This document shows, piece after piece, positions 53 to 40,994 of a stretch of DNA of 40,994 nucleotides. Origin of the DNA: a virus; IMG/VR virus record IMGVR_UViG_3300042691_032496, positions 1-40,994 of that record; one strand, given 5' to 3'. The position numbers and the translations under genes were made by a program. How positions within the stretch are numbered: position 1 is the stretch's first letter; each line of letters opens with the position of its first letter. The notes under the pieces are model-generated. The model did no database searches. It was given only the letters and a program-made list of their open reading frames with translations, and was not told the origin of the DNA.

Positions 53-715
53 TTAGTATTTAATTTCTTTGAAATCGTCTTCGTCAGTATAAGTGTCAAA
101 AGTTCTTTTAATTTCATCAGGTGAATAATCTTCAACTTCATCAGTTGTTAAAATATATTCATTCTTTCCTGATTTTTCCAAATCTTCTTCTTTATCAGCA
201 AAGAAATCTGTAAGTTTTTGATTGAATGGTCCTGAGTCCAAACTTCTAAGTTCTAATTTTTCTTGTGGAGTCTTTTCTCTATATTTTTCAATCTTACTTT
301 CAATTGAATTTAGTTTTTCAATTACAGAGTTCATATCTTGTAATTTAGATTCCAAGTTACCTAATTGATTGAATAAATTTTGAAAGTATTCTTCTTGTTT
401 TGTTTCTATATTTTTTTGAGCTGATACTAAATCAGTAATTTCTAACTCTTCACCTTCTTCAGATGAAATATCTTCTCCTGTGTCCGATATCTTTTCAACA
501 TCAGGGTCATTTTCAATATCTACGGGTTGTGGTTCTGCAGCAGTGTCTGATGGTGGAGGTGTAGCCCCTGCGTCAGCTGGTGGTAATGCCGCTGGGTCAT
601 CAGTTGGTTCTGCGGGTGGTGGAGGTAACTCACCGGTCTCTTGTTCAAAAATATAATTATTTATTTTATTATATTTTCTTAATTCCTCTAATATTGCTTG
701 TGAAGTCTGACTCAT
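53..715 (-). CDS. Acidic, Pro/Ala-rich coiled-coil protein of unknown function
   Basis: This 220-residue protein is not recognised. Residues ~30-65 are a Pro/Ala/Asp-rich linker (runs such as GELPPPPAEP). Residues ~65-95 are strongly acidic, and ~95-145 have the heptad-like Leu/Ile pattern of a coiled coil (LFNQLGNLESKLQDMNSVIE). The C-terminus is again acidic. There is no signal peptide or membrane segment. It starts one base after the stop of the 74 aa gene (TAAGATG), so the two are very probably translationally coupled. The linker DNA is noticeably GC-richer than its surroundings. The N-terminus contains AILE|E at residues 7-11, which formally fits a T4-type prohead protease site. Composition and late-region position suggest a virion, scaffold or assembly protein, but this is a guess. 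Confidence 0.7.
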   Translation of the reverse strand: MSQTSQAILEELRKYNKINNYIFEQETGELPPPPAEPTDDPAALPPADAGATPPPSDTAAEPQPVDIENDPDVEKISDTGEDISSEEGEELEITDLVSAQKNIETKQEEYFQNLFNQLGNLESKLQDMNSVIEKLNSIESKIEKYREKTPQEKLELRSLDSGPFNQKLTDFFADKEEDLEKSGKNEYILTTDEVEDYSPDEIKRTFDTYTDEDDFKEIKY

Positions 716-17099: not shown

Positions 17100-20000
17100 T
17101 TAGATGTTCTCAAAAGATGCTCCTGTTGGAGTAATTAAGAACTCGATGTCAATAAATTCTAACGCTTTTGTTGGTTTGATGTAAATCTTACCTACTAATT
17201 GGTTAGCATCTAAGTCTTCAGGTGTGTTAGACACTGTTACACGGAAGTCATATAAACCTCTATCTCTACGGATTGCGTCTAAGATAGGATTAACTGAATC
17301 CAAGAACTGTTGTCTTACCAAACTATCGTTTTGTTCGAACAATAATCTAATTGCCACCGCTGAAATTAACTTACGAGCTTGTAATAACAATCTTCTAACA
17401 TTAATTCTGTCTAACGCAGACTCTCTAATTTGTAAGGTCTTATTACCCCAAATAACTGTTCCAACATCGTTAAATGTTGCGATTGGGTTAATTCTTCCTT
17501 TGTAAAGAATGTCTCTATCTTCTTGTGTTAATCTCTTACGAGCTCTAACCGCGTTTACAATACCCCGAGTGTAACCAGCAGTTGCAAACCATGGGAATGC
17601 AACGTTGTCAGTCAATGCTAAGTTTCTTGTAACCTCAGCAGTTGGTGGGATGTAAAGTTGAGTATTATTAACAGTATCACGAGTTAAAACCCATGGATAG
17701 TAAGTTGCAGTATAGTTAGAGTCGATTGCCGAATCTTCCAAATTAACAACCGCTTCCTCAGGTAAGATTAAGTTATCAGAAATTACTGTTGAATTTTGTA
17801 ACAAATCAAAGTCAGGAGTAGTTGTGATGTAAATAGAGTCTGCTCTATTATACTCAACCATGTTAATTGTTGCATTAACTAATTCATAGTTATTAACATA
17901 ATCAATACCAGGTGTAACCAAAACGTTAATGTTTGTAACCTCAGGATTTGAGAATGTTTGAATACCTAACAAGTATGCGTAGTAGTCAGTATTTGCATAA
18001 TCTGTAGCGTTTTGGTCAACTGTGATTCTTCTAAATGAACCCCAACCTGTTGCATTTGTGTATGGTGTACAAGGAGCCGCACCTGCCAAATAACCAGTTC
18101 CACCTAATGTGAAATCATCGTTATTTGTTCTGTATTCTCTATAAATGTCCCATCCATCAAAACCACCATAAAACGCCATACTAAACTTACGAGAATATAA
18201 GTAGTAATATGTTTCAGTTTTTAAAGTTGGTTCAGATGTAAATGAACCGGCTCCAACATCAAATGCTGTTTCACCACTTGTTAAGTAATTACTAGCAATA
18301 GTGATAACAGTAGCTCCTGAGTCCATGTGGAAACCTTTTGTTAAGTAATTCCAAGAACTAAAATCTGCCTCATCTAATGTACAACTATCAAAACCTGTAA
18401 TTAAATTTTGTTTTCCTTTGTATTGTAAGAAATCACTATCATATCCAAGTTTTGTAGAGAAACCTAAATAAGTTCTTCTCACATTATCACCAGTTGATAT
18501 TACTTTATTATCAACACCAACACTTGTCCCAAATGGAGGGTTCCAAATTACTTCACCAGGATATTCATAACTTGTCTTATAGACAGGGAATGGTGGGTGA
18601 ATGTTTGCTGAAGTTACATCATAAGTTCTTGTAATATAACCATTAAATCCACAAGGAAGTGCATCGTATGGTGCTTCGTAATTAATTTCTAACATTACAT
18701 AACGAGAGTTGATTGCAAAATCTCCGTCAGATGTTCCAATTCTCTTAGCAATATAACTATTTAAATCAGGATTCATTGTACAGTTAGTAAACTTCTCTAA
18801 AACAACAGGGTTAGCATCTGTATCATAAAAATCTCTAATAACTACGTCAAAAGTTAAGTTATTAAAAGACATGTTTTGTATTGATACTTTGATTTCTGTA
18901 TTGGCCGCAGTTCCGTCAGAAATTGAAATGAATCTAAATAAGTTGTAAACTTTTGTACCTCTTAATTCTGAAACAACATAAGGTGTTGTTGGTGTTTGGT
19001 ATCTTTCTAAATAGTTACCTAATGATGTCGCTGACTGACTTTCGGCAGAATTTAAATCAGTTAGAGTAGTATTTAAACCTCTAATATAACCTTTATTATA
19101 ACCCCAAGTTAATAATGTATCGTAAGATTCTTCAACAAACAATGGAACAACTGTTCTATCTTTTTCAAAATTATCTTGACCAAATACTTTGTTAATGTAA
19201 TTAGCATTAGCAGATTCAAATGATGCCTCAAAACTAAATGCTGATGAATCATATTGAGTTCCACTAATTGAGAATGTTGAATACGGATTTGTCGTTGCCG
19301 CACTGTACGCTCCTGTAACAGTTAATGAAACATCGGTTGTTCCAGTAACTTGGTATTTTGGACCATGTTGAGATGAACTATAATTTGTAATACCTCTTGA
19401 CCTTAAAGTTGCAAGTACTAAGTTGTGATATTCAGTGTATGTAATACCTGTGAATAATTGAATTCCAATTGTTAAAGCATTATAGTTAGCCGCATTATAT
19501 CCACCAAAAGAACTGAAGTTTTGATTATTTTGTGTAACTATAAAAGAAAATCCAGAATAATTGTCAGTATTAGGAATTGGGTCAAAATTAGAGTAAAACC
19601 AAGAATCATTTAATCCATCACAATAATCTATTGTCGATGCATTGAAATCGTTAATTCCAAATACATTTGTTTTACCAGTATACCCATTATATATGTTATA
19701 CTGTGTTGTTGGTAATGCTCCAAAATAAATTACATTTTCATCATATAAACCTGAAGGTAAAGTTGTATCTGACATTTGAGAGTAAAATGTATTCCATAGG
19801 AAATTTTGTATCTCAGACCTAATTGTTGATGAGGTTCCATCATATTTCAAAAAAGGATTATCAAATTTGGATAATAGATACGGATATGACGCTAACTCAG
19901 TTTCAATATCGAAAAATTCAATAGTAGATGCCGTACCTCCATTTACTTGGAAAGTAAATCCAACTGAGATATTTGTTAGAGTCACCCAATTAGAGTCTCC

Positions 20001-20372
20001 ATCAACTCCAACAGTTGAGCAGTCAACGTTGGCTACCGAAGTTACCGACCAAGAAGGACCTGCATCATAACCAGACAATCCTAGTACCCTAGTTACAAAT
20101 AATTGATTTGATTGTTGTAAATATGATTTTGCAATATATGCGGATTCATATTTTGGTATTTGGGTGTTTACAAATTTTTCAGGATTTGTACCACCAAAAT
20201 AAGATGTGAACTCATCGTAACTTGTCACAAAAATTGGTTCGAACGCAGGACCTTTAAGAGTTTCCCCAACAAGACCTAAGGTTGTTACACCAACACTTTG
20301 TGAAACGAATGATAAGTCACGCTCCGAAGTATATACTCCGGGAGAGACGAATACTTTGTTTGCACTTGCCAT
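17100..20372 (-). CDS. Tail sheath protein, T4 gp18-like
   Basis: This is a 1090-residue contractile sheath subunit. The N-terminus FVSPGVYTSERDLS (residues ~8-21) followed by TTLGLVGETLKGPAFEPIFV and YFGGTN is the family signature. At the C-terminus, NVRRLLLQARKLISAVAIRL (~1000-1020), FEQND, and TVSNTPEDLDANQLVGKIYI (~1050-1070) form the conserved core that makes the inter-subunit handshake. It is much longer than T4 gp18 (659 aa). The extra ~400 residues sit in the middle (~150-850), are Tyr/Thr/Asn-rich and probably form protruding outer domains. It has its own A/T-rich 122-nt leader shared with a divergent small gene, and its own terminator. Confidence 0.93.
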   Translation of the reverse strand: MASANKVFVSPGVYTSERDLSFVSQSVGVTTLGLVGETLKGPAFEPIFVTSYDEFTSYFGGTNPEKFVNTQIPKYESAYIAKSYLQQSNQLFVTRVLGLSGYDAGPSWSVTSVANVDCSTVGVDGDSNWVTLTNISVGFTFQVNGGTASTIEFFDIETELASYPYLLSKFDNPFLKYDGTSSTIRSEIQNFLWNTFYSQMSDTTLPSGLYDENVIYFGALPTTQYNIYNGYTGKTNVFGINDFNASTIDYCDGLNDSWFYSNFDPIPNTDNYSGFSFIVTQNNQNFSSFGGYNAANYNALTIGIQLFTGITYTEYHNLVLATLRSRGITNYSSSQHGPKYQVTGTTDVSLTVTGAYSAATTNPYSTFSISGTQYDSSAFSFEASFESANANYINKVFGQDNFEKDRTVVPLFVEESYDTLLTWGYNKGYIRGLNTTLTDLNSAESQSATSLGNYLERYQTPTTPYVVSELRGTKVYNLFRFISISDGTAANTEIKVSIQNMSFNNLTFDVVIRDFYDTDANPVVLEKFTNCTMNPDLNSYIAKRIGTSDGDFAINSRYVMLEINYEAPYDALPCGFNGYITRTYDVTSANIHPPFPVYKTSYEYPGEVIWNPPFGTSVGVDNKVISTGDNVRRTYLGFSTKLGYDSDFLQYKGKQNLITGFDSCTLDEADFSSWNYLTKGFHMDSGATVITIASNYLTSGETAFDVGAGSFTSEPTLKTETYYYLYSRKFSMAFYGGFDGWDIYREYRTNNDDFTLGGTGYLAGAAPCTPYTNATGWGSFRRITVDQNATDYANTDYYAYLLGIQTFSNPEVTNINVLVTPGIDYVNNYELVNATINMVEYNRADSIYITTTPDFDLLQNSTVISDNLILPEEAVVNLEDSAIDSNYTATYYPWVLTRDTVNNTQLYIPPTAEVTRNLALTDNVAFPWFATAGYTRGIVNAVRARKRLTQEDRDILYKGRINPIATFNDVGTVIWGNKTLQIRESALDRINVRRLLLQARKLISAVAIRLLFEQNDSLVRQQFLDSVNPILDAIRRDRGLYDFRVTVSNTPEDLDANQLVGKIYIKPTKALEFIDIEFLITPTGASFENI

Positions 20373-29083: not shown

Positions 29084-29113
29084 ATTATAATTTATGAATT
29101 AGTGAATGTCAAA
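29084..29113 (-). promoter_or_regulatory. Consensus primary-sigma promoter of the DNA polymerase gene
   Basis: The minus strand has TTGACA (29107-29112), a spacer of exactly 17 nt, then TATAAT (29084-29089): a textbook sigma-70 promoter ~60 nt before the polymerase ATG. It also starts with TTTG (29110-29113) and shares TTTGACATT with the promoter at the left edge of the window. Its -10 region fits TAnnTTTG poorly. A short inverted repeat, CCGA/TCGG (29048-29063), lies between promoter and gene and could be an operator; this is unproven. Confidence 0.65.
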
Positions 29114-32100
29114 TTAGGCGTTTACTATAAGAGTAACTGTACCTTGAGTTCCACCGTCGGCGGTGATGTAACCATATGTACCATCAAATGTAAAATTAGA
29201 TGCAGTATTAATTGTGTATTGTCCTCCATTTGTTAATTGACTATTAGTTTTAAATACTGATGGATATGCGTCTGTTAAACTTAAATCCATAACAACAACC
29301 CCTAAACCGGCTCCGGTTGAAAGTCTCACCCACATTTCAGGGTGACCTTCTTGACCTGATGAATTATAATCATACCCTATAAGAACTGAACCAGTAAATC
29401 CAACAACCCCAACTATACTTTGTGTTAATATCCTATTTATAACTCCCGTTGACCCAATAACTTCTCTTATTGTTATTGTATTTGTCGCAAATGATACAAA
29501 ATAAATATAATCAACACCATCAATCAAAACAATAATTGGTTTTGCGGTAGTTGATACTGGAGCACCTATAGTGTTCGCACCAGGGATTATAATACCCCCA
29601 TTACCAACTGACGGTCTATTTGCCGCGTCTACATAAGTCCAAATACACACATCAACAATATATCTATAATTTGATGTTCCAAAAATATACAATCTATTTA
29701 CGTTTTCAATACCAACCCCTAAATGAAATGCCGTAGTTGACCCAACTGAAAAATTATATATTGCAATTGTTGGTGTAAATACCCTAACATACAAATTAGC
29801 GTTATTATAATTATTGTAAAAGTAATTTGTACAAGTCCCAGCTCTAACCGATTCAGTCGGGTTTACAGCTCCAAAAGTAAATTGGTCATCTACTTGCATG
29901 AGCTCCGGTTGTTGCATTATCAATGGCTCTAATCTAATGAAGAATATTCCTCCAACATTATTTGTATATGTTAATGAATTCAGACCCTCATTATAAACTA
30001 ACCCAGTATTATAAATTGAATTACTATAACTAGGTTGAGTGACTGTTCCATTTGTGTTAAATTCCCAAATTATTGTTTCAGGGTCTAAAACACTTACAAC
30101 CCTAAACATAAAAAGAAATGCACCATTTCTTGTAACAATAATTGGTGTTATGTAGTAACCTTGAAATATAAATGATGGTAAAACATTATTTGTAGTTGGT
30201 CCAACAATCGTAACTCCTTCTGTAATTACCCCTAATTGAACTGCCCGTTCAAAAAATCCATATGGAATTGACGGAGAAGGAGTAATTGTTGGAGTGACGG
30301 AATTAGTTGGAGTAAGAGATTGACTTAATGATACACTAGGTGTTATTGTTTGACTTACCGATACACTAGGTGTGTTTGTTGGAGTGGCGGTCGGTGACAA
30401 TGATAAGGATACACTAGGTGTGTTTGTTGGAGTGGCGGTCGGTGACAATGATAAGGATACACTAGGTGTGTTTGTCGGTGTATTAGATACTGTTATACTA
30501 GGAGTATTTGTTGGAGTAGTAGTTGGTGATAGTGATAAGGATACACTAGGTGTGTTTGTTGGAGTGGCAGTTGCAGTATTAGATACTGTTATACTTGGAG
30601 TATTTGTTGGTGTATTAGATACTGTTATACTTGGAGTATTAGTTGGCGTGGGTGTTGTAGTATTAGATACGGTTATACTAGGGGTATTTGTCGGTGTTTG
30701 AGTTACAGTATTAGATACGGTTATGCTAGGAGTGGTTGTTGGTGTATTTGTTGGTGTTTGAGTTGCAGTTTCTGACATGGTCACACTAGGCGTATTTGTT
30801 GGTGTAGGTGTTGGGGTAGAGTCAACAGTTCCGCACACTACAAATTGAGATGATGGTGTTCCTACTATAATCCCAATTCCGTCAAATACTGTAAGAGTCT
30901 CAGATAAGATATAATTTTTATCTGTTACATAAAATGTTGCGGAGCTATTTCTACCATCAAATTGTATTATAATTGTCGATTGATTTATAACTACTGAATT
31001 AAATAATGTATCATTTCCAGTATTAATAAAAAACTGTGTAGAATTTAAAATACCTTTTCCGGCTGAAGTTGGTTCTTCCCATGAGAATAAAGAAGTATTA
31101 CATAACGGACTTTGGGTAATTGTTGGAGTAATACTTGGGGTTTGAGTATTCGTTACGGTATTTGTTGGGGTAATTGTTAAACTTGGAGTGACGGTTGAAG
31201 TTGGTGTTTCGGTTGGTGTAGGCGTATTAGTTGGTGTGGTAGTTGGTGTTGATGATTCTCCAGGAGATGGAGTTATTGTCGGAGTAACGGTTGAAGTTGG
31301 AGTTATTGTCGGAGTAACGGTTGAAGTTGGTGTGGTAGTTGGGGTTTCGGTTGAAGTTATTGTAGGGGTAATAGTTGGAGTAGGGGTTGGAGTAGGGGTT
31401 GTGGTTGGGGTACTACTAGGATTTACCGCTTCGGCAGATGGGGTAACAGTTGGAGTTTTTGTATTAGTATTTGTAGGAGTATTAGTAGGAGTATCTGAAT
31501 TAGTTGGGGTATTTGTTTGAGTAACAGTTGCTGTAACAGTATTTGTTGGAGTACTTGTTGGGGTTGTAGTTGGGGTTTCTAATGGAGTTTCAGTATTTGA
31601 TGGGGTAATTGTATTTGTTGGTGTTATAGTATTTGTTGGGGTAATTGTATTTGTTGGAGTTATTGTATTAGTTTGTGTTGGAGTTATTGTATTAGTTTGT
31701 GTTGGAGTTATTGTATTAGTTGGTGTTATAGTGTTTGTTGGAGTTATTGTAGAAGTGATGGTCGGAGTGTTAGTTGGAGTTGACGAAGGGTTTGGAGGGT
31801 CACCTGATGGAGTCACTGTTGGGCTTAAACTAATTGTTGGTGTAATTGTAGATGTAACAGTATTTGTCGGAGTATTTGTGTTTGTAGGTGTATTTGTTGG
31901 GGTAGTTGTATTAGTAGGAGTAACAGTCTGTGTATTAGTAGGTGTAACCGTTTGAGTATTAGTTGGAGTTGACGAAGGGTTTGGAGGGTCACCTGATGGA
32001 GTCACTGTTGGACTTAAACTAATTGTTGGGGTATTAGTTGGAGTAGAGGTATTTGTAGGTGTTACGGTATTAGTTGGGGTATTAGTAGGTGTAGTTGTAT

Positions 32101-33271
32101 TAGTTGGTGTATTTGTTTGAGTTATTGTGGGGGTTTGTGTTACAGTAGATGTTGGGGTTGTCGATGGATTTGGAGGGTCACCTGATGGAGTAACTGTTGG
32201 ACTTAAACTAATTGTTGGAGTAATTGTGGAAGTAACGGTATTAGTGGGAGTATTTGTATTTGTAGGAGTATTTGTTGGGGTAATTGTATTAGTAGGGGTA
32301 TTTGTTTGCGTTACTGTAGGAGTTTGTGTAATAGTGGATGTCGGGGTTGACGACGGATTTGGTGGGTCACCTGATGGAGTCACTGTTGGGCTTAAACTAA
32401 TTGTTGGTGTAATTGTAGATGTAACAGTATTTGTCGGAGTATTAGTTTGAGTTGGCGTATTAGTGGGGGTAATTGTATTAGTAGGAGTATTAGTTTGGGT
32501 TGAGGTTGGAGTTTGTGTAACAGTAGATGTCGGGGTTGATGATGGATTTGGCTCCTCACTTGATGGAGTGACTGTTGGTGTAATTGTATTTGTAGGAGTT
32601 ATAGTAGGAGTTTTAGTATTTGTAGGTGTTTGAGTTCTTGTTTGAGTATTTGTTGGAGTTATTGTTACAGAAGGTGTTGGTGTTTTAGTATTAGTTGGAG
32701 TTGGTGTATTGGTTTTTGTTGGAGTATTTGTTGGGGTAATACTTGGAGATAAACTAATTGTTGGGGTAATACTTGGAGATAAACTAATTGTTGGGGTATT
32801 TGTAGGAGTTATTGATGGGGTTGGTGTCTGGCTTCTTGCAGGCACTGAAACCTCATCAACACAACAAGGTTGGTCAGTAGTTGTCCCTGTTACAGGGACG
32901 TACCCATCTAATGAAAAACTATCTTGTATTGTTAAATAATTTTTATCACTTAAATCTAATCTAATAGTTCCTTGTGAATCAACAATGTTAACAATAATTT
33001 CATAATTACCAACTTGTGAAGTTTGATTTTTTGAAAATTGGTACTCTATAACATATAAAGTTTCTGAATTATTTAATGGATTGATTTCACTAACAACACT
33101 ACAAATAAGATTAGACAAATACACTAATCCGTTATCAGTATTAATTAAATCTAAGGTAACATTACTTGTGTTTGATAGATTGGAAAGTCTGTCATAGTCT
33201 GACCTGCCGTCTTTTGTGACCTCAATTCGTAATTTAGATAACGTTGAATTTTGACTTATAATAAACTCCAT
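29114..33271 (-). CDS. Giant Thr/Pro-rich fibre-like (mucin-like) surface protein
   Basis: This 1385-residue protein has five parts. Residues 1-~135 are a beta-rich N-terminal domain resembling the 117 aa neighbour, probably an Ig-like baseplate-anchoring domain. Residues ~149-720 are dense TPTNTPT/TITPTNT repeats with a 63-residue higher-order period. Residues ~720-814 are a globular beta domain (SLFSWEEPTSAGKG, FVVCG). Residues ~814-1002 are a second repeat block (NTPSITVSNT, SVSLSLSPTATPTNTPS). Residues ~1003-1385 are a C-terminal beta-rich domain that may be a propeller or receptor-binding head. No signal peptide is present. I start at ATG 33271, which overlaps the upstream stop as TGATG, rather than the TTG three bases earlier. 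It is likely a long flexible fibre or adhesin; Thr/Ser density makes it a candidate for O-glycosylation. Confidence 0.75.
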   Translation of the reverse strand: MEFIISQNSTLSKLRIEVTKDGRSDYDRLSNLSNTSNVTLDLINTDNGLVYLSNLICSVVSEINPLNNSETLYVIEYQFSKNQTSQVGNYEIIVNIVDSQGTIRLDLSDKNYLTIQDSFSLDGYVPVTGTTTDQPCCVDEVSVPARSQTPTPSITPTNTPTISLSPSITPTISLSPSITPTNTPTKTNTPTPTNTKTPTPSVTITPTNTQTRTQTPTNTKTPTITPTNTITPTVTPSSEEPNPSSTPTSTVTQTPTSTQTNTPTNTITPTNTPTQTNTPTNTVTSTITPTISLSPTVTPSGDPPNPSSTPTSTITQTPTVTQTNTPTNTITPTNTPTNTNTPTNTVTSTITPTISLSPTVTPSGDPPNPSTTPTSTVTQTPTITQTNTPTNTTTPTNTPTNTVTPTNTSTPTNTPTISLSPTVTPSGDPPNPSSTPTNTQTVTPTNTQTVTPTNTTTPTNTPTNTNTPTNTVTSTITPTISLSPTVTPSGDPPNPSSTPTNTPTITSTITPTNTITPTNTITPTQTNTITPTQTNTITPTNTITPTNTITPTNTITPSNTETPLETPTTTPTSTPTNTVTATVTQTNTPTNSDTPTNTPTNTNTKTPTVTPSAEAVNPSSTPTTTPTPTPTPTITPTITSTETPTTTPTSTVTPTITPTSTVTPTITPSPGESSTPTTTPTNTPTPTETPTSTVTPSLTITPTNTVTNTQTPSITPTITQSPLCNTSLFSWEEPTSAGKGILNSTQFFINTGNDTLFNSVVINQSTIIIQFDGRNSSATFYVTDKNYILSETLTVFDGIGIIVGTPSSQFVVCGTVDSTPTPTPTNTPSVTMSETATQTPTNTPTTTPSITVSNTVTQTPTNTPSITVSNTTTPTPTNTPSITVSNTPTNTPSITVSNTATATPTNTPSVSLSLSPTTTPTNTPSITVSNTPTNTPSVSLSLSPTATPTNTPSVSLSLSPTATPTNTPSVSVSQTITPSVSLSQSLTPTNSVTPTITPSPSIPYGFFERAVQLGVITEGVTIVGPTTNNVLPSFIFQGYYITPIIVTRNGAFLFMFRVVSVLDPETIIWEFNTNGTVTQPSYSNSIYNTGLVYNEGLNSLTYTNNVGGIFFIRLEPLIMQQPELMQVDDQFTFGAVNPTESVRAGTCTNYFYNNYNNANLYVRVFTPTIAIYNFSVGSTTAFHLGVGIENVNRLYIFGTSNYRYIVDVCIWTYVDAANRPSVGNGGIIIPGANTIGAPVSTTAKPIIVLIDGVDYIYFVSFATNTITIREVIGSTGVINRILTQSIVGVVGFTGSVLIGYDYNSSGQEGHPEMWVRLSTGAGLGVVVMDLSLTDAYPSVFKTNSQLTNGGQYTINTASNFTFDGTYGYITADGGTQGTVTLIVNA
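30265..30830 (-). repeat. Second Thr/Pro/Ser repeat block (16-residue units)
   Basis: This is tandem coding repetition in the fibre-like gene. Two identical 48-nt copies lie at 30361-30408 and 30409-30456 (unit: SVSLSLSPTATPTNTP), with further diverged copies up to ~30830 based on ITVSNTPTNTPS. The Ser-rich sequence differs from the first block, so the two blocks expanded separately. Confidence 0.8.
31110..32830 (-). repeat. First Thr/Pro repeat block with exact 189-nt higher-order period
   Basis: The block is made of short TPTNT-type units. Within it, the landmark LSPTVTPSGDPPNPSSTPT recurs. On the plus strand the end of GGAGGGT (or its variant) falls at 31800, 31989, 32178, 32367 and 32556, exactly 189 nt (63 codons) apart each time, even though the intervening units differ. 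At the N-terminal side a perfect 30-nt direct duplication lies at 32731-32760 and 32761-32790 (unit TISLSPSITP). Confidence 0.85.
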
Positions 33272-33624
33272 CAATTAGTAATATTAATATATAATTTTTC
33301 CCTATGTGGTAAAATATAGTCACCTTCGTCAGTAATTAAAGTAAATTCGGCCTCAAATTTCCCAATTTGACGAGTATCAAACGTAGAAAATTTATAGTAG
33401 ATATAATACTCTAATTTTGCGTTTGGTTCAATAAATACCTTCTCAACAAACCCACCTTTTTTATTAAGTATTACCTGTCTCCCATCTAAGGTATCTTTCA
33501 TAGAAAAATAAATCAAAGAATTTTCAATAACGTCAGAAAAATTATCTAACGAGCTTTCACCATCCTTAACTATTTGCATTTTTAGAAGTGGGAGCGTGGC
33601 GTTTTTTTTAATAAAAAATTCCAT
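33271..33624 (-). CDS. Small baseplate-anchor-like protein, paralogous to the fibre N-terminus (117 aa)
   Basis: This 117-residue beta-rich protein shares its layout with the N-terminal domain of the fibre-like protein that follows. MEFFIKKNATLPLLKMQIVK corresponds to MEFIISQNSTLSKLRIEVTK there. The later strand YYIYYKFSTFDTRQIGKFEA corresponds to YVIEYQFSKNQTSQVGNYEI. The pattern resembles the N-terminal domain of phage baseplate upper (BppU-type) proteins, so it may occupy the same socket without a fibre attached. I use ATG 33624: the alternative TTG at 33642 would put the TATTTATT box inside the gene, and the paralogue begins at the matching Met. Its stop overlaps the fibre start (TGATG). 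Confidence 0.7.
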   Translation of the reverse strand: MEFFIKKNATLPLLKMQIVKDGESSLDNFSDVIENSLIYFSMKDTLDGRQVILNKKGGFVEKVFIEPNAKLEYYIYYKFSTFDTRQIGKFEAEFTLITDEGDYILPHREKLYINITN

Positions 33625-33628
33625 ATTA

Positions 33629-33636
33629 AATAAATA
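33629..33636 (-). promoter_or_regulatory. TATTTATT box upstream of the fibre operon
   Basis: The minus strand reads GTATTTATT, 4 nt before ATG 33624. It separates the fibre pair from the sugar-transfer cassette, whose own genes have no such box. Confidence 0.4.
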
Positions 33637-33651
33637 CGCCAAAAATGATAA

Positions 33652-36021
33652 TCAGCTCTCCTTTCTTATACTCCTATCATAATGTTCGTACCTATCATGT
33701 TCAGTAGGTGTAAGTAAAAGAATACCTGGATATAATTTACCTTTTTTAGTTTCTTGAAACATGTGACTCATCCATGTTTGTTCAAATGGGTGAGCCCATT
33801 TTGTTTCTAAAAACATTTTTTTATTTCCTTCTCTTGTCACAATTTGAGGCCAATTACAATAAAACACATCACCATCTGCATATGGTAACCCTTTATGGGT
33901 TTTAATCGTATTATATTTTGTTCTTGGGGCTTTTGGGTCTAATCCTTGTTCAGGTAGTTTTTTATTATTTGGAAAATATTCTTCTCTAACAACTTGTGGA
34001 ACATTATACCATGACCATTGTGTTGAGTTATCTCCAAAAAACTCCGAAAAATTAAGTTTTAAAAAGTCAAAATTTTCTTTTTCAACTATCTCAACGATTT
34101 TGTTATATAAATTTTCAATGTATCTATTAAATCCATTTCTACAAACTTCACCTTTTTTTGGATAAAAAAACATATCATCCTCAAAAAAGAAATACCCATC
34201 TAAGTCTGTTAAATTAAAGTGTTCAGCAATGAACTGTCGTCCGCCACAAATTCCTAAATTTTCATTTTTCCAAATTATTTCAAACCCGTGTTCTTTACAT
34301 ATTTTAATATATTCCTCATCCGTAGACCTATCGGTCGAATTGTTTAATAAATATTTTTTAGGTTCATTTAAAAAATTAATATCGTAATCAATAAAGGATT
34401 GAATGAGAGTTTTTAATTGATTTGGACTATTAAATCCAATAACATATAAACCAATATTTTTTAAATTACAGTTATCTAATGTTTGTTTTTTTTCACTTTT
34501 AATATTCAATGTTTTATTTTTAAGATTTTCAAAAAATAACCATACTAATCCATTTGGTTCAATTTCACTATAATCAAATAATTCAGGGTATTTATAAATC
34601 ATTATTGTAAAAATACTTTCTTCGGTACCCATATATCCATCAGATAATGTTTGATTCAGTAATTGATAGTATAAATTGTTTATTTCAGAAATTGTTTGTT
34701 TTGGGCCTCCAAAAAATCCTCCTCTGGCAACTTTATTAACTTTTTGTTCAGATATTTCACATAACTTATTATATTCAAATCCATGTATTTCAGAATTTGT
34801 TTCATATGGAAAAGTTAAAAATGTAAATTTCTTTATTAGTTTTGGTAGATTATTGATTACTTTATCATGTGTAAAATATCCTAAATTAACAGTATTAGTT
34901 AATCCCGCATCAATCCAAAAAATATACTCAGAATTAAATCTATCTAAAATTTTCGCATCATGTAACAAAAAAATCTTACTCATTACAATTGGGTTATACA
35001 TTTCCAATTTAGATTGTGTTGATTCTTGTAACCAACTAACCTGTCCATACCACTCTTTATTAGTTCTTATTTTTTGTATTTTATCATAAAACTCATTATT
35101 TTTAAACCAATTTAAATCTCTATAAATAAATTGAGTATTATAAGATTTTCTTCTTTCCCATACAAAACTTTCTAATTCAGAATCTCCAAATATTATAATG
35201 TTATTGTCTATTTTAAGTAATTCTTCAAATTTTTTCAAATAGTGTCCTTCATACGACCTTGACCATCCCTCAGTTAATTCATTTCGACCCAAATTCCATA
35301 AACCTGTTACTAAAGTAACGTTAGATTCAGAATCATAATTAACTGTGTTTATAGTATTTTTAATTTCATCATAGAAATATTTAGGCAACCCTATAATATC
35401 CTGACCTGAAATTTCATAAACATAATCATTATTATTAAAAATATTAATAATTTGTTTTTGTTCGTCATCAGTCAAATTAATCCATTCTAATCTAATAACT
35501 TTTGGGGTATATTTTTTTAAATCTATTTGTTTAAAAATATTAAAATCATGACCTTCGGCGTCTATTTTAAGAATTTCAAAATTATTAATTCTGTGTTTAT
35601 TAATTAGAGTTTCAAATGTTATGCATGGAACTTTAATTAGTTTACCATATTTTTCAACAGTGGGTCTATCAAACTCACTACCTAAACCATTTTTAGGGGG
35701 ATAAACCGCACTCATACCATAAAAACAACTATGTACTAATCCACTATCTATAATTTCTTTGTCAATAGTCATCATTTCTATAACACCGTTATAATCAGAA
35801 ATTGCACTATTTTCAAACATTGCTTTATTTTTTATGTTGGATTGTAACCTTTCAAAAAGGTAAGGTACTGGTTCAACGTATAATACATTAAAGTTATACA
35901 TATTGGTGTATCCTATCATTTCGTCAAACATTACCCCATCCATAGAGCCTATGTTCAATGCTATAATATCTGGCTGTTTTTTTCCTAAAAAATGCAACGC
36001 TTTATCAAAAAAATTCTCCAT
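33652..36021 (-). CDS. Three-domain FkbM methyltransferase / HtrL-type / GT2-like glycosyltransferase
   Basis: This is a 789-residue fusion. Residues ~1-215 are an FkbM-type SAM methyltransferase: ALNIGSMDG (21-29), YVEP (48-51) and LKIDAEGHD (151-159). Residues ~235-500 resemble the HtrL/YibB glycosyltransferase family: VTLVTGLWNLGRNE, NIIIFGDSE, YIFWIDAG (366-373) and GGFFGGP. Residues ~520-789 form a GT-A fold like family 2: IGLYVIGFNSPNQLKTLIQS, GICGGRQFIA, and FFFEDDMFF with the acidic DxD-like site at 614-616. It is predicted to add and O-methylate sugars on a glycan. It is the last gene of the cassette and lies next to the fibre pair, which suggests the fibre as a target. Host surface polysaccharide is an alternative target. 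Confidence 0.8.
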   Translation of the reverse strand: MENFFDKALHFLGKKQPDIIALNIGSMDGVMFDEMIGYTNMYNFNVLYVEPVPYLFERLQSNIKNKAMFENSAISDYNGVIEMMTIDKEIIDSGLVHSCFYGMSAVYPPKNGLGSEFDRPTVEKYGKLIKVPCITFETLINKHRINNFEILKIDAEGHDFNIFKQIDLKKYTPKVIRLEWINLTDDEQKQIINIFNNNDYVYEISGQDIIGLPKYFYDEIKNTINTVNYDSESNVTLVTGLWNLGRNELTEGWSRSYEGHYLKKFEELLKIDNNIIIFGDSELESFVWERRKSYNTQFIYRDLNWFKNNEFYDKIQKIRTNKEWYGQVSWLQESTQSKLEMYNPIVMSKIFLLHDAKILDRFNSEYIFWIDAGLTNTVNLGYFTHDKVINNLPKLIKKFTFLTFPYETNSEIHGFEYNKLCEISEQKVNKVARGGFFGGPKQTISEINNLYYQLLNQTLSDGYMGTEESIFTIMIYKYPELFDYSEIEPNGLVWLFFENLKNKTLNIKSEKKQTLDNCNLKNIGLYVIGFNSPNQLKTLIQSFIDYDINFLNEPKKYLLNNSTDRSTDEEYIKICKEHGFEIIWKNENLGICGGRQFIAEHFNLTDLDGYFFFEDDMFFYPKKGEVCRNGFNRYIENLYNKIVEIVEKENFDFLKLNFSEFFGDNSTQWSWYNVPQVVREEYFPNNKKLPEQGLDPKAPRTKYNTIKTHKGLPYADGDVFYCNWPQIVTREGNKKMFLETKWAHPFEQTWMSHMFQETKKGKLYPGILLLTPTEHDRYEHYDRSIRKES

Positions 36022-36029
36022 AATTTTAT

Positions 36030-37805
36030 TTATTTTTTTATAATAATTGATGTAACACTTTCATCAAAATTTGGTGTTCTTGTCCAAATATCAATTGATG
36101 ATATATTGCTTTTAATGTATTCTTTATCCTCGTCGTTAATATAATTAGAGATTAATTCTCCGGTGTCATTTAGTTTGTTTAACATGTCTAATGTACTAAT
36201 TAAGTCTTCACCACTTTTAAATCTATCAATATTTGATGTGTGTAAATCTTCGATTATGTACGCACCTCCACTATTAAGTGATTTAAATAACACTCCAAAT
36301 GAAGTTTGTTGTTGTTTCATAGTGTGTCCCCCATCATCAATTATTATATCAAAATTACCACCATTTAATTTAATAAAATTTAATAAATCTTCTTCTTTTT
36401 CTTGATTATAAACATATGTTATAATTTTTTCAGAATTTAAATGACTAGTATCGGCAATATCAATACCGTATATTTTTGATTTTTTAAAATATTCAGATAA
36501 CATTTTTAAACTATCTCCTTGGTAGATTCCAATCTCTAATATTTTTTTTGAATCTTTCATTTTTAAAAATAAAGGTTCATAAATTACCATATAACCATGG
36601 TTATATTTATCTGTATTAAATTTTATCATATCATTATTAATTAACGTTGGGGTAATCAATTTGTTAAACTCAGAAGGTTCATAAAACTTAGGTTGTTTTT
36701 CTAACATGGTAGGATGATTACACCCTGTATCAGGGACACTCGAAGCATATCTTAAAACTGGAAAGGATGTTACTCCTTGATTTATGTCCCATAATTCTCT
36801 AGTTTCATATAAATGATTTTCTTTTTCATATGGTACAATATACATAGGAATTTTATTATTTCTAAAATATCTAGAAATTAAAACGTCATCCGAAAATGTT
36901 TTTCCTAAATAATCAGTAAAAAAATCATTTTTAAATAATTTTTTCTTGTATGATACTGATTTATAATGTTGTAATCCGTGAGTTTCCCTAATTTCAGTAA
37001 CACATAAAACCCAACTATCTCGAATATCATTATCATATAATGGTTTTTCAGAACCCCTACCATCATACCCAATTGCACTGTCAATTAATTTTGATTGATA
37101 TTTTTTATGTTCACTAACCATTTCACAATGATATACCAAGTCGTCATCAACCACTAATATAATTGTATCTTCGTTTTTAATTCTTTTTAATGTTGGTACA
37201 AATTTAGTTGGGGGTCCTAAATCCTCTACTCTAAAAATTTTTAAATTAGGATATTTGAGTTTATATTCATGTATCCAATTTGGGATAACATAAGGTTGTT
37301 TAGTAACATTATAAATGTCAGGTATGTTAAAATGAACTTCGTAATCATCATCCTCTTGTTCACATAATGATGATATTACTAATTTTAAACCATCTTCTTT
37401 TTCACTTTGTAACCTTTCAGGTACTGTAGTTAAACTAATTATTAAAGATTTTTCCTTTTCACTTCCATGATTCATTTTATATTCAACAAATCCCTCTTTA
37501 AACTTAGAGTTAATTTCATTTTTAATACCGACTCTTATATTATTGAAATCTCTAATTTTTAAAGCCCTTCTACCAATTTCTTCTAAACCTAAAATTGCTT
37601 CATTTCCTTTTCTAATATCAGATTCTAAATTCCAAATATCCCCATTAACCCCATATAATCTTTCAATATATGTTTCTAATTTTTCATAATTAGACATTTC
37701 TAATAATAATTCGTTAATTTCTTGTGAAAGGTCTAATTCTAATCTTTCACTTTTTAGTTTACATATTGTGTATCTGTCGACAATTTCTCCTATTGATGTT
37801 TTCAT
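36030..37805 (-). CDS. Glycosyltransferase fused to class I SAM methyltransferase
   Basis: This is a 591-residue, three-part protein. Residues ~1-105 are a helical domain (MKTSIGEIVDRYTICKLKSE, VNGDIWNLESDIRKGNE) of the kind found in small sugar-pathway proteins of unknown function. Residues ~118-390 are a GT-A-like transferase: SLIISLTTVPERLQ, then ILVVDDDLVYH with the acidic site at 220-222, then FSDDVLISRYF. Residues ~410-591 are a methyltransferase: YNHGYMVIYEPLF, KKILEIGIYQGDSLKML, SKIYGIDIAD and FDIIIDDGGHTMKQQ, the last typical of macrolide/sugar O-methyltransferases related to MycE. It starts 11 nt after the upstream gene in a packed operon. Substrates are unknown. Confidence 0.75.
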   Translation of the reverse strand: MKTSIGEIVDRYTICKLKSERLELDLSQEINELLLEMSNYEKLETYIERLYGVNGDIWNLESDIRKGNEAILGLEEIGRRALKIRDFNNIRVGIKNEINSKFKEGFVEYKMNHGSEKEKSLIISLTTVPERLQSEKEDGLKLVISSLCEQEDDDYEVHFNIPDIYNVTKQPYVIPNWIHEYKLKYPNLKIFRVEDLGPPTKFVPTLKRIKNEDTIILVVDDDLVYHCEMVSEHKKYQSKLIDSAIGYDGRGSEKPLYDNDIRDSWVLCVTEIRETHGLQHYKSVSYKKKLFKNDFFTDYLGKTFSDDVLISRYFRNNKIPMYIVPYEKENHLYETRELWDINQGVTSFPVLRYASSVPDTGCNHPTMLEKQPKFYEPSEFNKLITPTLINNDMIKFNTDKYNHGYMVIYEPLFLKMKDSKKILEIGIYQGDSLKMLSEYFKKSKIYGIDIADTSHLNSEKIITYVYNQEKEEDLLNFIKLNGGNFDIIIDDGGHTMKQQQTSFGVLFKSLNSGGAYIIEDLHTSNIDRFKSGEDLISTLDMLNKLNDTGELISNYINDEDKEYIKSNISSIDIWTRTPNFDESVTSIIIKK

Positions 37806-37816
37806 ATTTTTAAAAT

Positions 37817-38689
37817 TTAATTATTTGTTACAAAAAAATCATTATAATTTTTTGTAAATGTTATTTCTTGGGTTAAATTATGAGTTGTTCCTCGATTTAA
37901 GTAAACAAAAAAGCCACTATTACCGGTATAGGTAATTACATATTTACATTTTGAATGTATCCATAATGATGCAATATAGTATTCTGACCAAGTTATTTTT
38001 TTATCGTCATCTAATGGTATTGGAGGATAAATTTCGGATGAATTACCTAATGAAGTTTCTTTAAAAAATGTAGTATCAAAAGATTGAGAAAAAACCCCTA
38101 TCACTCCATTATTTTCAGATTGTATTAAAACTTTTGGTCGGTTACCGTCAGACTCAAATAATTCTTGACATTTTCTAAAATATCCTCCTGCCGAAATATA
38201 ATTAAACCCACCCATATCTGTCCATTTATCAGAATCTCTATAAATTACTGATATTGTATTATCTAAATCAACATTATATTTTTCAATTAATTCTTGAATT
38301 TTTTCTTTAATATTATCATTAACGTTAAAATATTTTTTAAAAAATTTATTATAATATTTTGAATATTTTTCAGAATAAATTGTGTGTTGGTCATCAGGGC
38401 TAAATGGAACAGGGATTTCAAAATCATCAAAATTAATTTTTAATGATTTGTTAATGTGAAAAAAATGATGATACATATCAATATTACTATCATTTTTTAG
38501 TTTTCTTAACAAATGTTTACCATCAATTTTATTAGGCAGTTTTTTATATTTTTTATACACAACCATTAAAGATGTTAACATTAATGTAAATGTCGAAAAA
38601 AATCCGTAATCTTTAATATTTTCTCTACCTATTAAAATATTATTTTTGGTATCGTAATCGTACCCGTATAAAATGTTTTCAACAATCAT
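37817..38689 (-). CDS. Fucosyltransferase-like glycosyltransferase (tentative)
   Basis: This 290-residue protein ends with a nucleotide-sugar-binding type pattern seen in alpha-fucosyltransferases and related GT-B enzymes. ISVIYRDSDKWTDMGGF (~139-155) is followed by KVLIQSENNG and FSQSF, then by SEYYIASLWIHSKCKYVITY and TGNSGFFVYLNRG (~258-270). The Arg-rich substrate motif of classical families is not clear, so the family is uncertain. I choose ATG 38689, which forms an ATGA overlap with the upstream stop; the TTG two codons earlier is less likely. The N-terminal half is Lys/Tyr/Phe-rich and unrecognised. Confidence 0.5.
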   Translation of the reverse strand: MIVENILYGYDYDTKNNILIGRENIKDYGFFSTFTLMLTSLMVVYKKYKKLPNKIDGKHLLRKLKNDSNIDMYHHFFHINKSLKINFDDFEIPVPFSPDDQHTIYSEKYSKYYNKFFKKYFNVNDNIKEKIQELIEKYNVDLDNTISVIYRDSDKWTDMGGFNYISAGGYFRKCQELFESDGNRPKVLIQSENNGVIGVFSQSFDTTFFKETSLGNSSEIYPPIPLDDDKKITWSEYYIASLWIHSKCKYVITYTGNSGFFVYLNRGTTHNLTQEITFTKNYNDFFVTNN

Positions 38690-40395
38690 AACCAATTATT
38701 TAAATTTAACAAATTAAATGTCTTTTTAAGTTTATTATTTTGCATAATATTATTTTCATAATATTCTCTAGCATTTTTGGAAATAAAATTTAAAAATTTA
38801 TTATCATTTATAACTTCCATATATCTTTTTTCAAATAATTTATAATGTTCAACAGTACCTGTTCGATATAAACTCATATCAGATGGTCTTTCTATTGAGA
38901 TGTAATGATAATTAGGTATTAATTCGTTATAGAATTTTGACTCAAATTCAAATCTAATGATTGGGACTCCAATACCAAAACATTCGATGTCTCGATAACA
39001 AAATTCACCTCTACCATCAATTGATAATGCAATTTTGTGTTTAATAATATCTTCAAAATATAATTCGGGGATAATTGGTGTAAAATCAGTTATTAAATTT
39101 TTATCTATATGATTTAAAAATGACCTGTCATTTAATGAAGTCCCTCTAAAATAAATTTTATTTTCTGTAGGCGGTATTAGTAATCTTTTATAATAATATC
39201 TATCTAAATCAATAACTGAGGATGGGAAATAAGTCCACGGACTATATTTGTACATGAATTTACCCGTGTGCTCAAAAATAGTCTTAGTTATAAATTGAGA
39301 AACTAAAACTTTTTTTAAAAAAGGATTAGATTTTTCATTAAGAATTGCATGAGATAATGTATCAGATACTGACATTATTACAAACTCACCGTTTTCTAAA
39401 TTTTCAATAATATACTCACATTCTAATACTAAAAGTTCATCTGTTAATCCTTTATTTAATTTAATTGGACATCTTTGAATGTGAGCGTTTTCAAAAAATC
39501 TGTTTTCATCAACATTAAAGAATAATTTAAGATAGTCTGTTAAATCATCCCAAAAACGATTATAATTTCTGTAATCTTTTGTATTACTATTTGATGGATT
39601 GTGAACTCTAATTCTTGGTTTAATTGTGGGATGACTATCATTCACATATTCATTTATCGATTCAGTTATAGATTCATTTGTTTCATTAATAGTTAAATTA
39701 TTTACTTCTATTGGAGTTAAAGTAACATCCCCACCTAATAATTCAAAATCTTCACCAGTATACCCACATTCAATTAAAAATTCATTGTATATTTTTTTTG
39801 CATCTTCACTATCCATAGTATTGTGATAGTTATGTTCAAAACAAATGAATGGTTTTATTTCTAATTTTTTAATAAAATTTTTAAGAGAACTAAGAATGTA
39901 ATAATCAAATGTTTCAGTGTCAATTTTAATAAAATTAAAATCTGAAAAAAAACTAAATCTTTCATTTAATAATCCATATATATCCCTCATTTGAGTTGGG
40001 GTTCCCCCGTTACTTGAAATTTGACCCAATCCTAAATTGATTCCATCTAATGTATCTTTATTTAAAAAATATTCAATCGTATCTTCGCTAAAATAAATTA
40101 ATTTATCCTCATTAGATATTGCGTAGTTAAAAATTTCAACACCCTGGACTTCCTTAAATTTATTTTTTAAATAATCTGATAATATTTTAGAACCCTCAAA
40201 CATTACACAATTTTCAATATTGAAATGATTTGATAGAATATCATAATATTTACCGACATTTGCCCCAATATCAATATATTTTAAATTTTTAACCCCTTTT
40301 TTATTAAAATAGTTTATAACAATTGACGATTCATGATTTACATGTGACCCGCAAATATTATCATCCCAATATTTAATTATTTCATTTTTAATCAT
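38686..40395 (-). CDS. FkbM-like methyltransferase fused to a CAP10/exostosin-like glycosyltransferase
   Basis: This is a 569-residue fusion. Residues ~30-235 are a FkbM-type methyltransferase: KYIDIGANVGKYYDIL (39-54), VMFEGSK, and FNFIKIDTETFDYYILSS. Here IDTETFD takes the place of the usual IDxEGxE, so the active site is altered. A Thr/Asn/Glu-rich linker (~225-265) follows. Residues ~270-569 resemble CAP10/GT90- or exostosin-type transferases: NKIYFRGTSLNDRSFL, HKIALSIDGRGEFCYRDIEC, and FGIGVPIIRFEFESKFYNEL, the nucleotide-sugar region. The final ATGA couples it to the next gene. It is probably involved in O-methylation and sugar transfer on the same glycan as its neighbours. Confidence 0.65.
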   Translation of the reverse strand: MIKNEIIKYWDDNICGSHVNHESSIVINYFNKKGVKNLKYIDIGANVGKYYDILSNHFNIENCVMFEGSKILSDYLKNKFKEVQGVEIFNYAISNEDKLIYFSEDTIEYFLNKDTLDGINLGLGQISSNGGTPTQMRDIYGLLNERFSFFSDFNFIKIDTETFDYYILSSLKNFIKKLEIKPFICFEHNYHNTMDSEDAKKIYNEFLIECGYTGEDFELLGGDVTLTPIEVNNLTINETNESITESINEYVNDSHPTIKPRIRVHNPSNSNTKDYRNYNRFWDDLTDYLKLFFNVDENRFFENAHIQRCPIKLNKGLTDELLVLECEYIIENLENGEFVIMSVSDTLSHAILNEKSNPFLKKVLVSQFITKTIFEHTGKFMYKYSPWTYFPSSVIDLDRYYYKRLLIPPTENKIYFRGTSLNDRSFLNHIDKNLITDFTPIIPELYFEDIIKHKIALSIDGRGEFCYRDIECFGIGVPIIRFEFESKFYNELIPNYHYISIERPSDMSLYRTGTVEHYKLFEKRYMEVINDNKFLNFISKNAREYYENNIMQNNKLKKTFNLLNLNNWL

Positions 40396-40411
40396 ATTAT
40401 TTTTTTTAATT

Positions 40412-40994
40412 TTATAAATTACCTGTCATTCTTTGCCCCCATCCCTTTGATTCTGAATGTGGCCAAACTACCCAATATTTTGGTTTTTTAGTGGTTTGGA
40501 AATCTCTCCAAACCTTACAATATCCATCAGGGTCATTTTTCATTCTTAGAATTTCATTTTTATCCGCGTCTTTTCTATAAATTGTCTCATCATTTTCATC
40601 ATGGAATGCAACCGCCCAAAAATCATAATCGTTTTCAGGAACTTGTGAATATCCTACATCAATACAGTGTTTAAATATTGACGCAAATGAATCCATCCAT
40701 TCTTCTTCTGACGAGTAATTATATGTGTTTGGTGGATATTTTTTATCTAATGTTTCTTGTTGAACCGCTCTTTTAGAAAATAATAAACCCGAGTATCTTT
40801 CATAATCACGAAGTGTCCTTACTTTACCAAAACCATATTTCCCATGGTTCATTGGGGGTTCGTCATCCATTCCAAATAAAGCCCTATTTTTCTTATGACA
40901 AAGATTATTTCTGTCAACCCACTGTTTATCATCATCCCACTGTTTAGTTCTTCCTTTACGGGTATATTCGTGCCAAATAAGAACTTTATGAGGG
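40412..40994 (-). CDS. Unknown protein, 5' end beyond the window
   Basis: The reading frame is open from the window edge to the stop at 40412, giving at least 193 residues. An internal Met (40870) is preceded in frame by 41 more codons of the same character, including LIWHEYTRKGRTKQWDDDKQ and CHKKNRALFG, so the true start lies outside. The C-terminal part is Trp/Tyr/Asp-rich (FWAVAFHDENDET, KPKYWVVWPHSES) and highly polar, with no membrane segment. I recognise no family. Its position 16 nt before the first transferase gene suggests membership of the sugar cassette. Confidence 0.6.
   Translation of the reverse strand, partial: PHKVLIWHEYTRKGRTKQWDDDKQWVDRNNLCHKKNRALFGMDDEPPMNHGKYGFGKVRTLRDYERYSGLLFSKRAVQQETLDKKYPPNTYNYSSEEEWMDSFASIFKHCIDVGYSQVPENDYDFWAVAFHDENDETIYRKDADKNEILRMKNDPDGYCKVWRDFQTTKKPKYWVVWPHSESKGWGQRMTGNL

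Follow-up and report, generated by a model that had tools for sequence, protein, structure and literature searches.

A mucin-like phage fibre, its GT60-containing sugar-enzyme cassette and their bacterial counterparts: a candidate route to mucin-like proteins

The fibre, its putative anchor domain and the cassette

The window analysed here, the whole 40,994-base stretch of viral DNA (GC content 31%), belongs to a large, contractile-tailed phage of aquatic type: a sheath, a tube, a baseplate hub, a helicase, a head-tail adaptor and a family B DNA polymerase are recognisable in it. Based on the tail sheath, its closest isolates are Microcystis and Flavobacterium phages, at low identity. The IMG/VR collection contains many relatives with a 70-95% identical polymerase, the longest records reaching about 300 kb. 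Near one extremity, positions 53-715 (minus strand) encode a 220-residue protein with a Pro/Ala/Asp-rich stretch (PPPPAEPTDDPAALPPADAGATPPPSD) that differs from the Thr-rich tracts described below; it has no match among PHROG families.

The gene at 29114..33271 (minus strand, as are all the features that follow) encodes a mucin-like fibre of 1385 amino acids if the ATG at position 33271 is the start codon, or of 1386 if the TTG just before it is used. From the N- to the C-terminus, it is composed of an anchor domain (32864..33271), a first Thr/Pro/Ser/Asn tract (residues 138-738; 31061..32863; 41% Thr, 19% Pro) proposed to be the O-glycan acceptor, a second Thr/Ser/Pro tract (residues 803-1009; 30248..30868; 30% Thr) and a C-terminal domain of about 377 residues (29117..30247). 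The two tracts add up to 808 residues, against the ~760 noted in the sequence-only reading that first pointed to a repeat-rich fibre beside a packed cassette. They comprise 307 Thr, 149 Pro and 98 Ser (38%, 18% and 12%), and such long tandem tracts rich in Thr, Ser and Pro are what defines a mucin-like composition. Thr and Pro codons are mixed in the tracts, much as in the remainder of the window, so that the composition is a property kept at the protein level. The underlying DNA repeats are imperfect (the best long unit is 189 nt, in about 4.9 copies with 78% matches), and the tract is therefore not one slipped unit. Pfam and PHROG searches returned no family for the C-terminal domain, which has one close relative in viral contigs and few in the fetched loci; it is probably the distal, tip domain, swapped among relatives. 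A tblastn search of phage records with the whole fibre, low-complexity filter on, yielded no match.

The cassette had been placed directly beside the fibre. The two are indeed co-directional, but a separate gene (33271..33642), whose stop overlaps the fibre start, lies in between. Its 123-residue product is a stand-alone anchor-domain protein: an alignment of 65 sequences gathers it and the fibre N-terminus in one family. Pfam and PHROG searches gave no convincing family for this domain, and no homologue was found in the phage record collection. In a structural comparison of its predicted model (pLDDT 81), the five best rows are all phage baseplate or connector chains (TP901-1 baseplate, 80alpha, Bas63 connector, NF5 and the TP901-1 ORF48 N-domain; Z 7.9-8.3), immunoglobulin folds coming next at 7.7. 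Foldseek, also run with this model, returned a resemblance to BppU-type baseplate domains. With this small margin over immunoglobulin folds, the model is a hint, not proof, of a BppU-type baseplate anchor. The family is modular: 43 members are short and tract-free, 17 end in a tract and 25 possess a tract followed by a further C-terminal domain, the tract spanning 34 to 956 residues. An anchor-domain gene is found within 900 bases after 63 of 82 distinct YibB proteins.

The cassette itself consists of five co-directional sugar-enzyme genes on the fibre strand, separated by short gaps or overlapping, and extends past the window end; the fibre gene ends the run. A perfect sigma-70 consensus (TTGACA-17-TATAAT; 29084-29112) located in the gap that separates the end of the fibre gene from the DNA polymerase gene suggests that the cassette-fibre run terminates there, before the polymerase. 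In several close relatives (L095, L096, L105, L116-L118, L124, L125, L127, L135 and L136), the same slot upstream of the polymerase is occupied by a different tract protein, 945-1303 residues long, which adjoins a gene block on the opposite strand; where their records are long enough, the GT60/YibB cassette is located elsewhere, as in G020.

The cassette gene closest to the fibre (33652..36021) encodes an FkbM methyltransferase domain (PF05050, 9e-16), an HtrL_YibB domain (PF09612, 4e-19; 69.6 bits for a curated cut-off of 24.1) and a GT2-like C-terminal domain supported through a relative. PF09612 is named "unknown function" and is glycosyltransferase (GT)-like by context; this protein is proposed to be an extending and methylating enzyme. 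The next gene (36030..37805) combines a GT-like domain, with weak GT2 matches seen in relatives, and a Methyltransf_24/MycE-like methyltransferase (phrog_21658, 9.8e-21; PF13578, 5e-05). It is followed by a 292-residue soluble protein (37817..38695), for which Pfam and PHROG searches gave no significant family; it has relatives among six loci proteins and is conserved in L168, a locus syntenic with the window cassette and harbouring a complete GT60. The fourth gene (38686..40395) encodes an N-terminal FkbM methyltransferase (PF05050, 1e-06) and a C-terminal domain possibly GT90/GT-B-like, its relatives giving GT90 matches below threshold. The last gene (40412..40993), cut by the window end, encodes the C-terminal 193 residues of a polypeptide-GlcNAc-transferase-like enzyme (PF11397, 3.5e-07; phrog_24687, 3e-56), of CAZy family GT60, to which PF11397 corresponds, and had been overlooked as such. 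Two FkbM and one further methyltransferase (phrog_21658) are thus present as first described. Of the GT domains, put at "about five", PF09612 and PF11397 score above their Pfam cut-offs in the window and a third is reached via a relative, the others being weakly supported; among the family assignments, those to GT60 and YibB are the two confirmed by test.

The window fragment of the GT60 scores 30.4 bits (cut-off 21) and its full-length relatives about 190-216 bits; it is 90% identical to one of them (L010:5573-6817). In the full-length relatives, a DxH motif replaces DxD in a region outside the fragment, D92-S93-H94 being invariant in 50 aligned sequences. The DxH motif marks families GT27 and GT60, the latter having been noted in prokaryotes and protists (PMC7185993). 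A PDB sequence search returned no GT60 relatives. The AlphaFold model of the L010 enzyme (pLDDT 92.6) exhibits a GT-A fold close to that of the GT27 polypeptide GalNAc-transferases: the best 29 PDB entries all belong to these enzymes (Z 19.1-22.3), the next entry scoring 17.7. In Trypanosoma cruzi, the GT60 begins mucin O-glycosylation on Thr, using UDP-GlcNAc as donor and a peptide such as KPPTTTTTTTTKPP as acceptor (PMC3769586; PMC9472816). The window GT60 is hence proposed, from its sequence family, as the initiating transferase of the cassette; by analogy, its donor would most likely be UDP-GlcNAc, from which alpha-GlcNAc would be transferred, bearing in mind that GT families can switch acceptor.

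Between GT60 and YibB, relatives carry usually two or three genes, and up to ten, which are co-directional and very diverse. They include GT10 and GT11 (fucosyltransferase-type), GT25, FkbM, rhamnosyl-type O-methyltransferases, UDP-galactopyranose mutase, UDP-GlcNAc 2-epimerase and carbamoyltransferase. Hydropathy analysis detected a TM-like segment in none of 229 distinct cassette proteins. This diversity and the lack of TM-like segments fit a cytoplasmic, fast-diversifying glycan builder.

Tract proteins and GT60 enzymes in phages and bacteria

Open reading frames with such tracts occur at 66 of 72 viral GT60 loci, counted only if at least 12 kb long, versus 4 of 33 sheath loci that served as controls and come from other T4-like phages, the tract thresholds being those of this analysis. 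Their density is 10.2 per 100 kb in the former and 0.64 in the latter. The associated Fisher p of 7e-16 overstates independence, since the GT60 loci are mutually related; viral loci being kin, their co-occurrence counts as few events. GT60 is found in 28 of 35 phage records and YibB in 31 of 35. Inside the phage's own lineage, presence and absence are too uniform, nearly all long records having both genes, and polymerase loci without a nearby GT60/YibB carry both elsewhere in the genome; the comparison was therefore made with tail loci serving as controls and with bacterial genomes. Relatives with the cassette and without the fibre, which the sequence-only reading would have held against itself, exist in a narrow sense: as far as the contig extends, certain cassettes lack a neighbouring tract, for example L128 and L130, where just short anchor proteins are close by, but near-complete relatives hold several tract proteins scattered elsewhere in the genome.

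A second location of such sequences is the tail sheath (17100-20372 in the window). Among its homologues, 8 of 62 distinct sheaths (L092, L101, L141, L159, L160, L161, L162 and L164; homology to the window sheath was checked for one) carry a Thr-run or Thr/Pro loop at one common site, about residues 270-336, as in KTTTTTTSTTTTTTQSNPC; the window's own sheath has no loop. Such an insertion would place mucin-like loops over the entire tail. Scattered tract proteins and sheath loops together indicate that this fibre is probably not the sole substrate, other virion tract proteins being probable co-substrates. Among isolates, XacN1, CM1 and RAS14 each encode a GT60 (46-50% identity), which is ORF334 in XacN1, and a YibB-GT (about 40%). 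XacN1 and RAS14 possess in addition a protein of 3.1-3.3 thousand residues, ORF325 and WAX21643 respectively, whose C-terminal part contains a Thr/Pro/Ser stretch. Proteomics of XacN1 is reported to have revealed at least two glycoproteins, for which the authors implicated phage transferases (PMC5852040).

In bacteria, PF11397 is rare: in phylum surveys, it was matched strongly by 1 genome of 395 and by 3 of 298, the other Bacteroidota matches being weak and partial. A tract is located within 1 kb at 8 of 14 bacterial GT60 loci, and nine near tracts in 60 kb compare with five in 145 kb (p 0.007, on a small sample), tracts having been counted in six frames, including those under overlapping or masked ORFs. 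In 10 of 15 such loci, the gene for YibB-GT adjoins that for GT60 or is found a short distance away. By eye, the partner proteins of L304, L305, L308, L309, L315 and L316 display a twin-arginine pair, then a hydrophobic stretch, then the tract, and that of L304 ends in a Por_Secre_tail domain. In L310 and G511, the tail of the same small protein is a short Ala/Ser/Thr/Pro stretch only. To note, at four Gemmatimonadota loci (L309, L310, L316 and L412), a small protein precedes GT60 and YibB-GT; on visual inspection its conserved N-terminal domain looks PqqD-like, and the protein further has a twin-arginine-like segment and a tail of Ala/Ser/Thr/Pro, the length of which is very different among loci.

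One bacterial layout is that of Jiulongibacter sediminis JN14-9 (L308:7942-15145), which is available in culture and thus open to experiment. There, a 262-residue Thr/Pro-rich protein bearing a twin-arginine-like signal is encoded between two GT60 genes; a carbamoyltransferase gene and then an FkbM-YibB-GT gene come next, all on the chromosome. The product of the latter is 54% identical, end to end, to that of window gene 33652-36021, with the same architecture. Together with the chromosomal GT60, this runs counter to the idea of a phage-specific enzyme set put forward at first. A tree of GT60 sequences mixes those of phages with those of bacteria, and its well-supported branches force at least four label changes; these genes have thus moved between phages and bacteria, with the reservation that some rows from short MAG contigs may be phage DNA. 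We favour, with reasonable though not high confidence, a horizontally mobile prokaryotic mucin-type O-glycosylation module, made of a tract acceptor, a GT60 initiator of the T. cruzi mucin type, YibB-GT and variable modifiers, that would coat phage virion proteins (fibres and, in some relatives, a tail sheath loop) as well as proteins with twin-arginine-like signals in Bacteroidota, Gemmatimonadota and Acidobacteriota.

A proposed mechanism and its alternatives

The genes described above probably constitute a phage-encoded, cytoplasmic mucin-type O-glycosylation system that would decorate virion proteins. Virion glycosylation, already suggested by the first reading, is the best supported interpretation, based on the GT60, the anchor-like fold, the co-occurrence in independent lineages and the XacN1 glycoproteins; recognition of TPTNT is not supported: in relatives, the same enzymes are accompanied by tracts of TPTPS, TTTTTT and the like. 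Judging from its family, motif and fold and from the acceptor composition, the cytoplasmic GT60 would start a sugar on tract Thr residues. Constant adjacency suggests that YibB-GT and the variable transferases would then lengthen this sugar, which the enzymes of the FkbM and Methyltransf_24 types may methylate as a cap. The fibre would be assembled onto the baseplate or tail via its BppU-like N-terminal domain, as the fold hints, and the tracts would become a sugar-coated, extended stalk. Dense O-glycans would stiffen, lengthen and protect this stalk, and might in addition serve masking, shielding or adhesion. In the cellular versions, modification would take place in the cytoplasm and precede export by the Tat pathway.

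An unlikely alternative is that the cassette remodels host LPS, LOS or capsule against superinfection, the fibre being a mere neighbour in a variable receptor-binding region. Cyanophage GT clusters have been interpreted in this way (PMC7824862), HtrL/YibB is found in Acinetobacter lipooligosaccharide outer-core loci, and the cassette is highly variable among relatives. Yet the 229 cassette proteins include no membrane protein, flippase, polymerase or ligase, the GT60 motif and fold are akin to those of polypeptide transferases, and GT60 adjoins tract proteins in unrelated bacteria.

More doubtful still is the view that the tracts are unmodified flexible spacers between anchor and tip, grown by repeat slippage. 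Tandem DNA repeats are present and tract length varies widely in the anchor-domain family. However, composition remains constant among relatives while sequence varies and codons are mixed: over 152 proteins, the tracts contain 37% Thr and 8% Ser, a Thr to Ser ratio of about 4.5 to 1. Furthermore, the 17 anchor proteins that end in a tract have little or nothing beyond it, and hence nothing to space, and tracts accompany GT60 in bacteria as well. Finally, glycosylation of phage DNA by the cassette, with hypermodified bases of the kind known from other large phages, is very improbable: GT-rich large phages can have sugar-modified DNA (YerA41; PMC9023294) and 8 of the 19 records searched contain thymidylate synthase, a mixed picture, but this enzyme is absent from long GT60-bearing records (240 kb G020 and 215 kb G025, which may be incomplete) and the same genes are chromosomal in bacteria, beside tract proteins.

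Relation to known glycosylation systems

Phages and bacteria thus appear to share a little-known way to make mucin-like proteins. If the proposed O-glycosylation is correct, a GT60 set with its own acceptor is a bacterial route to such proteins, and the unexplained HtrL/YibB family gains a testable function. It would also provide a clear case of phages making their own sugar coat, with a bearing on host recognition and phage shielding, shed light on the TPTP-repeat proteins found in aquatic phages, and offer cytoplasmic enzymes usable to make mucin-like glycoproteins in E. coli. Among open-licence papers, nothing relevant was found on mucin-like phage fibres or on GT60 in phages.

The general O-glycosylation system of Bacteroidota, a likely related host phylum, also targets Thr/Ser, within a D-S/T motif. 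In contrast, this motif is nearly absent here: as first noted for the repeats, the 808 tract residues contain just one D-[S/T]-[AILVMT] site, and membership in that system is rejected.

The Thr-rich region of Streptococcus mutans Cnm is modified by pgf-operon transferases encoded beside the adhesin (PMC5856776). The layout is alike, with a repeat protein and adjacent transferases, whereas the streptococcal system relies on a membrane-bound PgfS, membrane partners and other enzymes, and its acceptor is a cell-wall adhesin. In mycobacteriophages, phage-encoded transferases decorate the C-termini of capsid and tail tube proteins (Freeman et al. 2023, cited in PMC12619734), while here the predicted acceptors are mucin-like fibre tracts, with a GT60 initiator. 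The Xanthomonas and Stenotrophomonas phages XacN1 and RAS14/CM1 share the GT60 and YibB-GT and, for XacN1 and RAS14, a large Thr/Pro/Ser protein; they differ by a short tract and in that the search of the phage collection gave no anchor-domain homologue.

Glycosylation of mucins by a GT60 has been described in protists (PMC3769586), and the closest parallel is the T. cruzi pp-alpha-GlcNAcT (TcOGNT), which belongs to the same enzyme family, possesses the DxH motif and acts on a Thr-rich acceptor with Thr and Pro runs. That system is eukaryotic, resides in the Golgi and serves secreted mucins, whereas the proposed phage and bacterial counterparts are soluble enzymes with their putative acceptor encoded next door.
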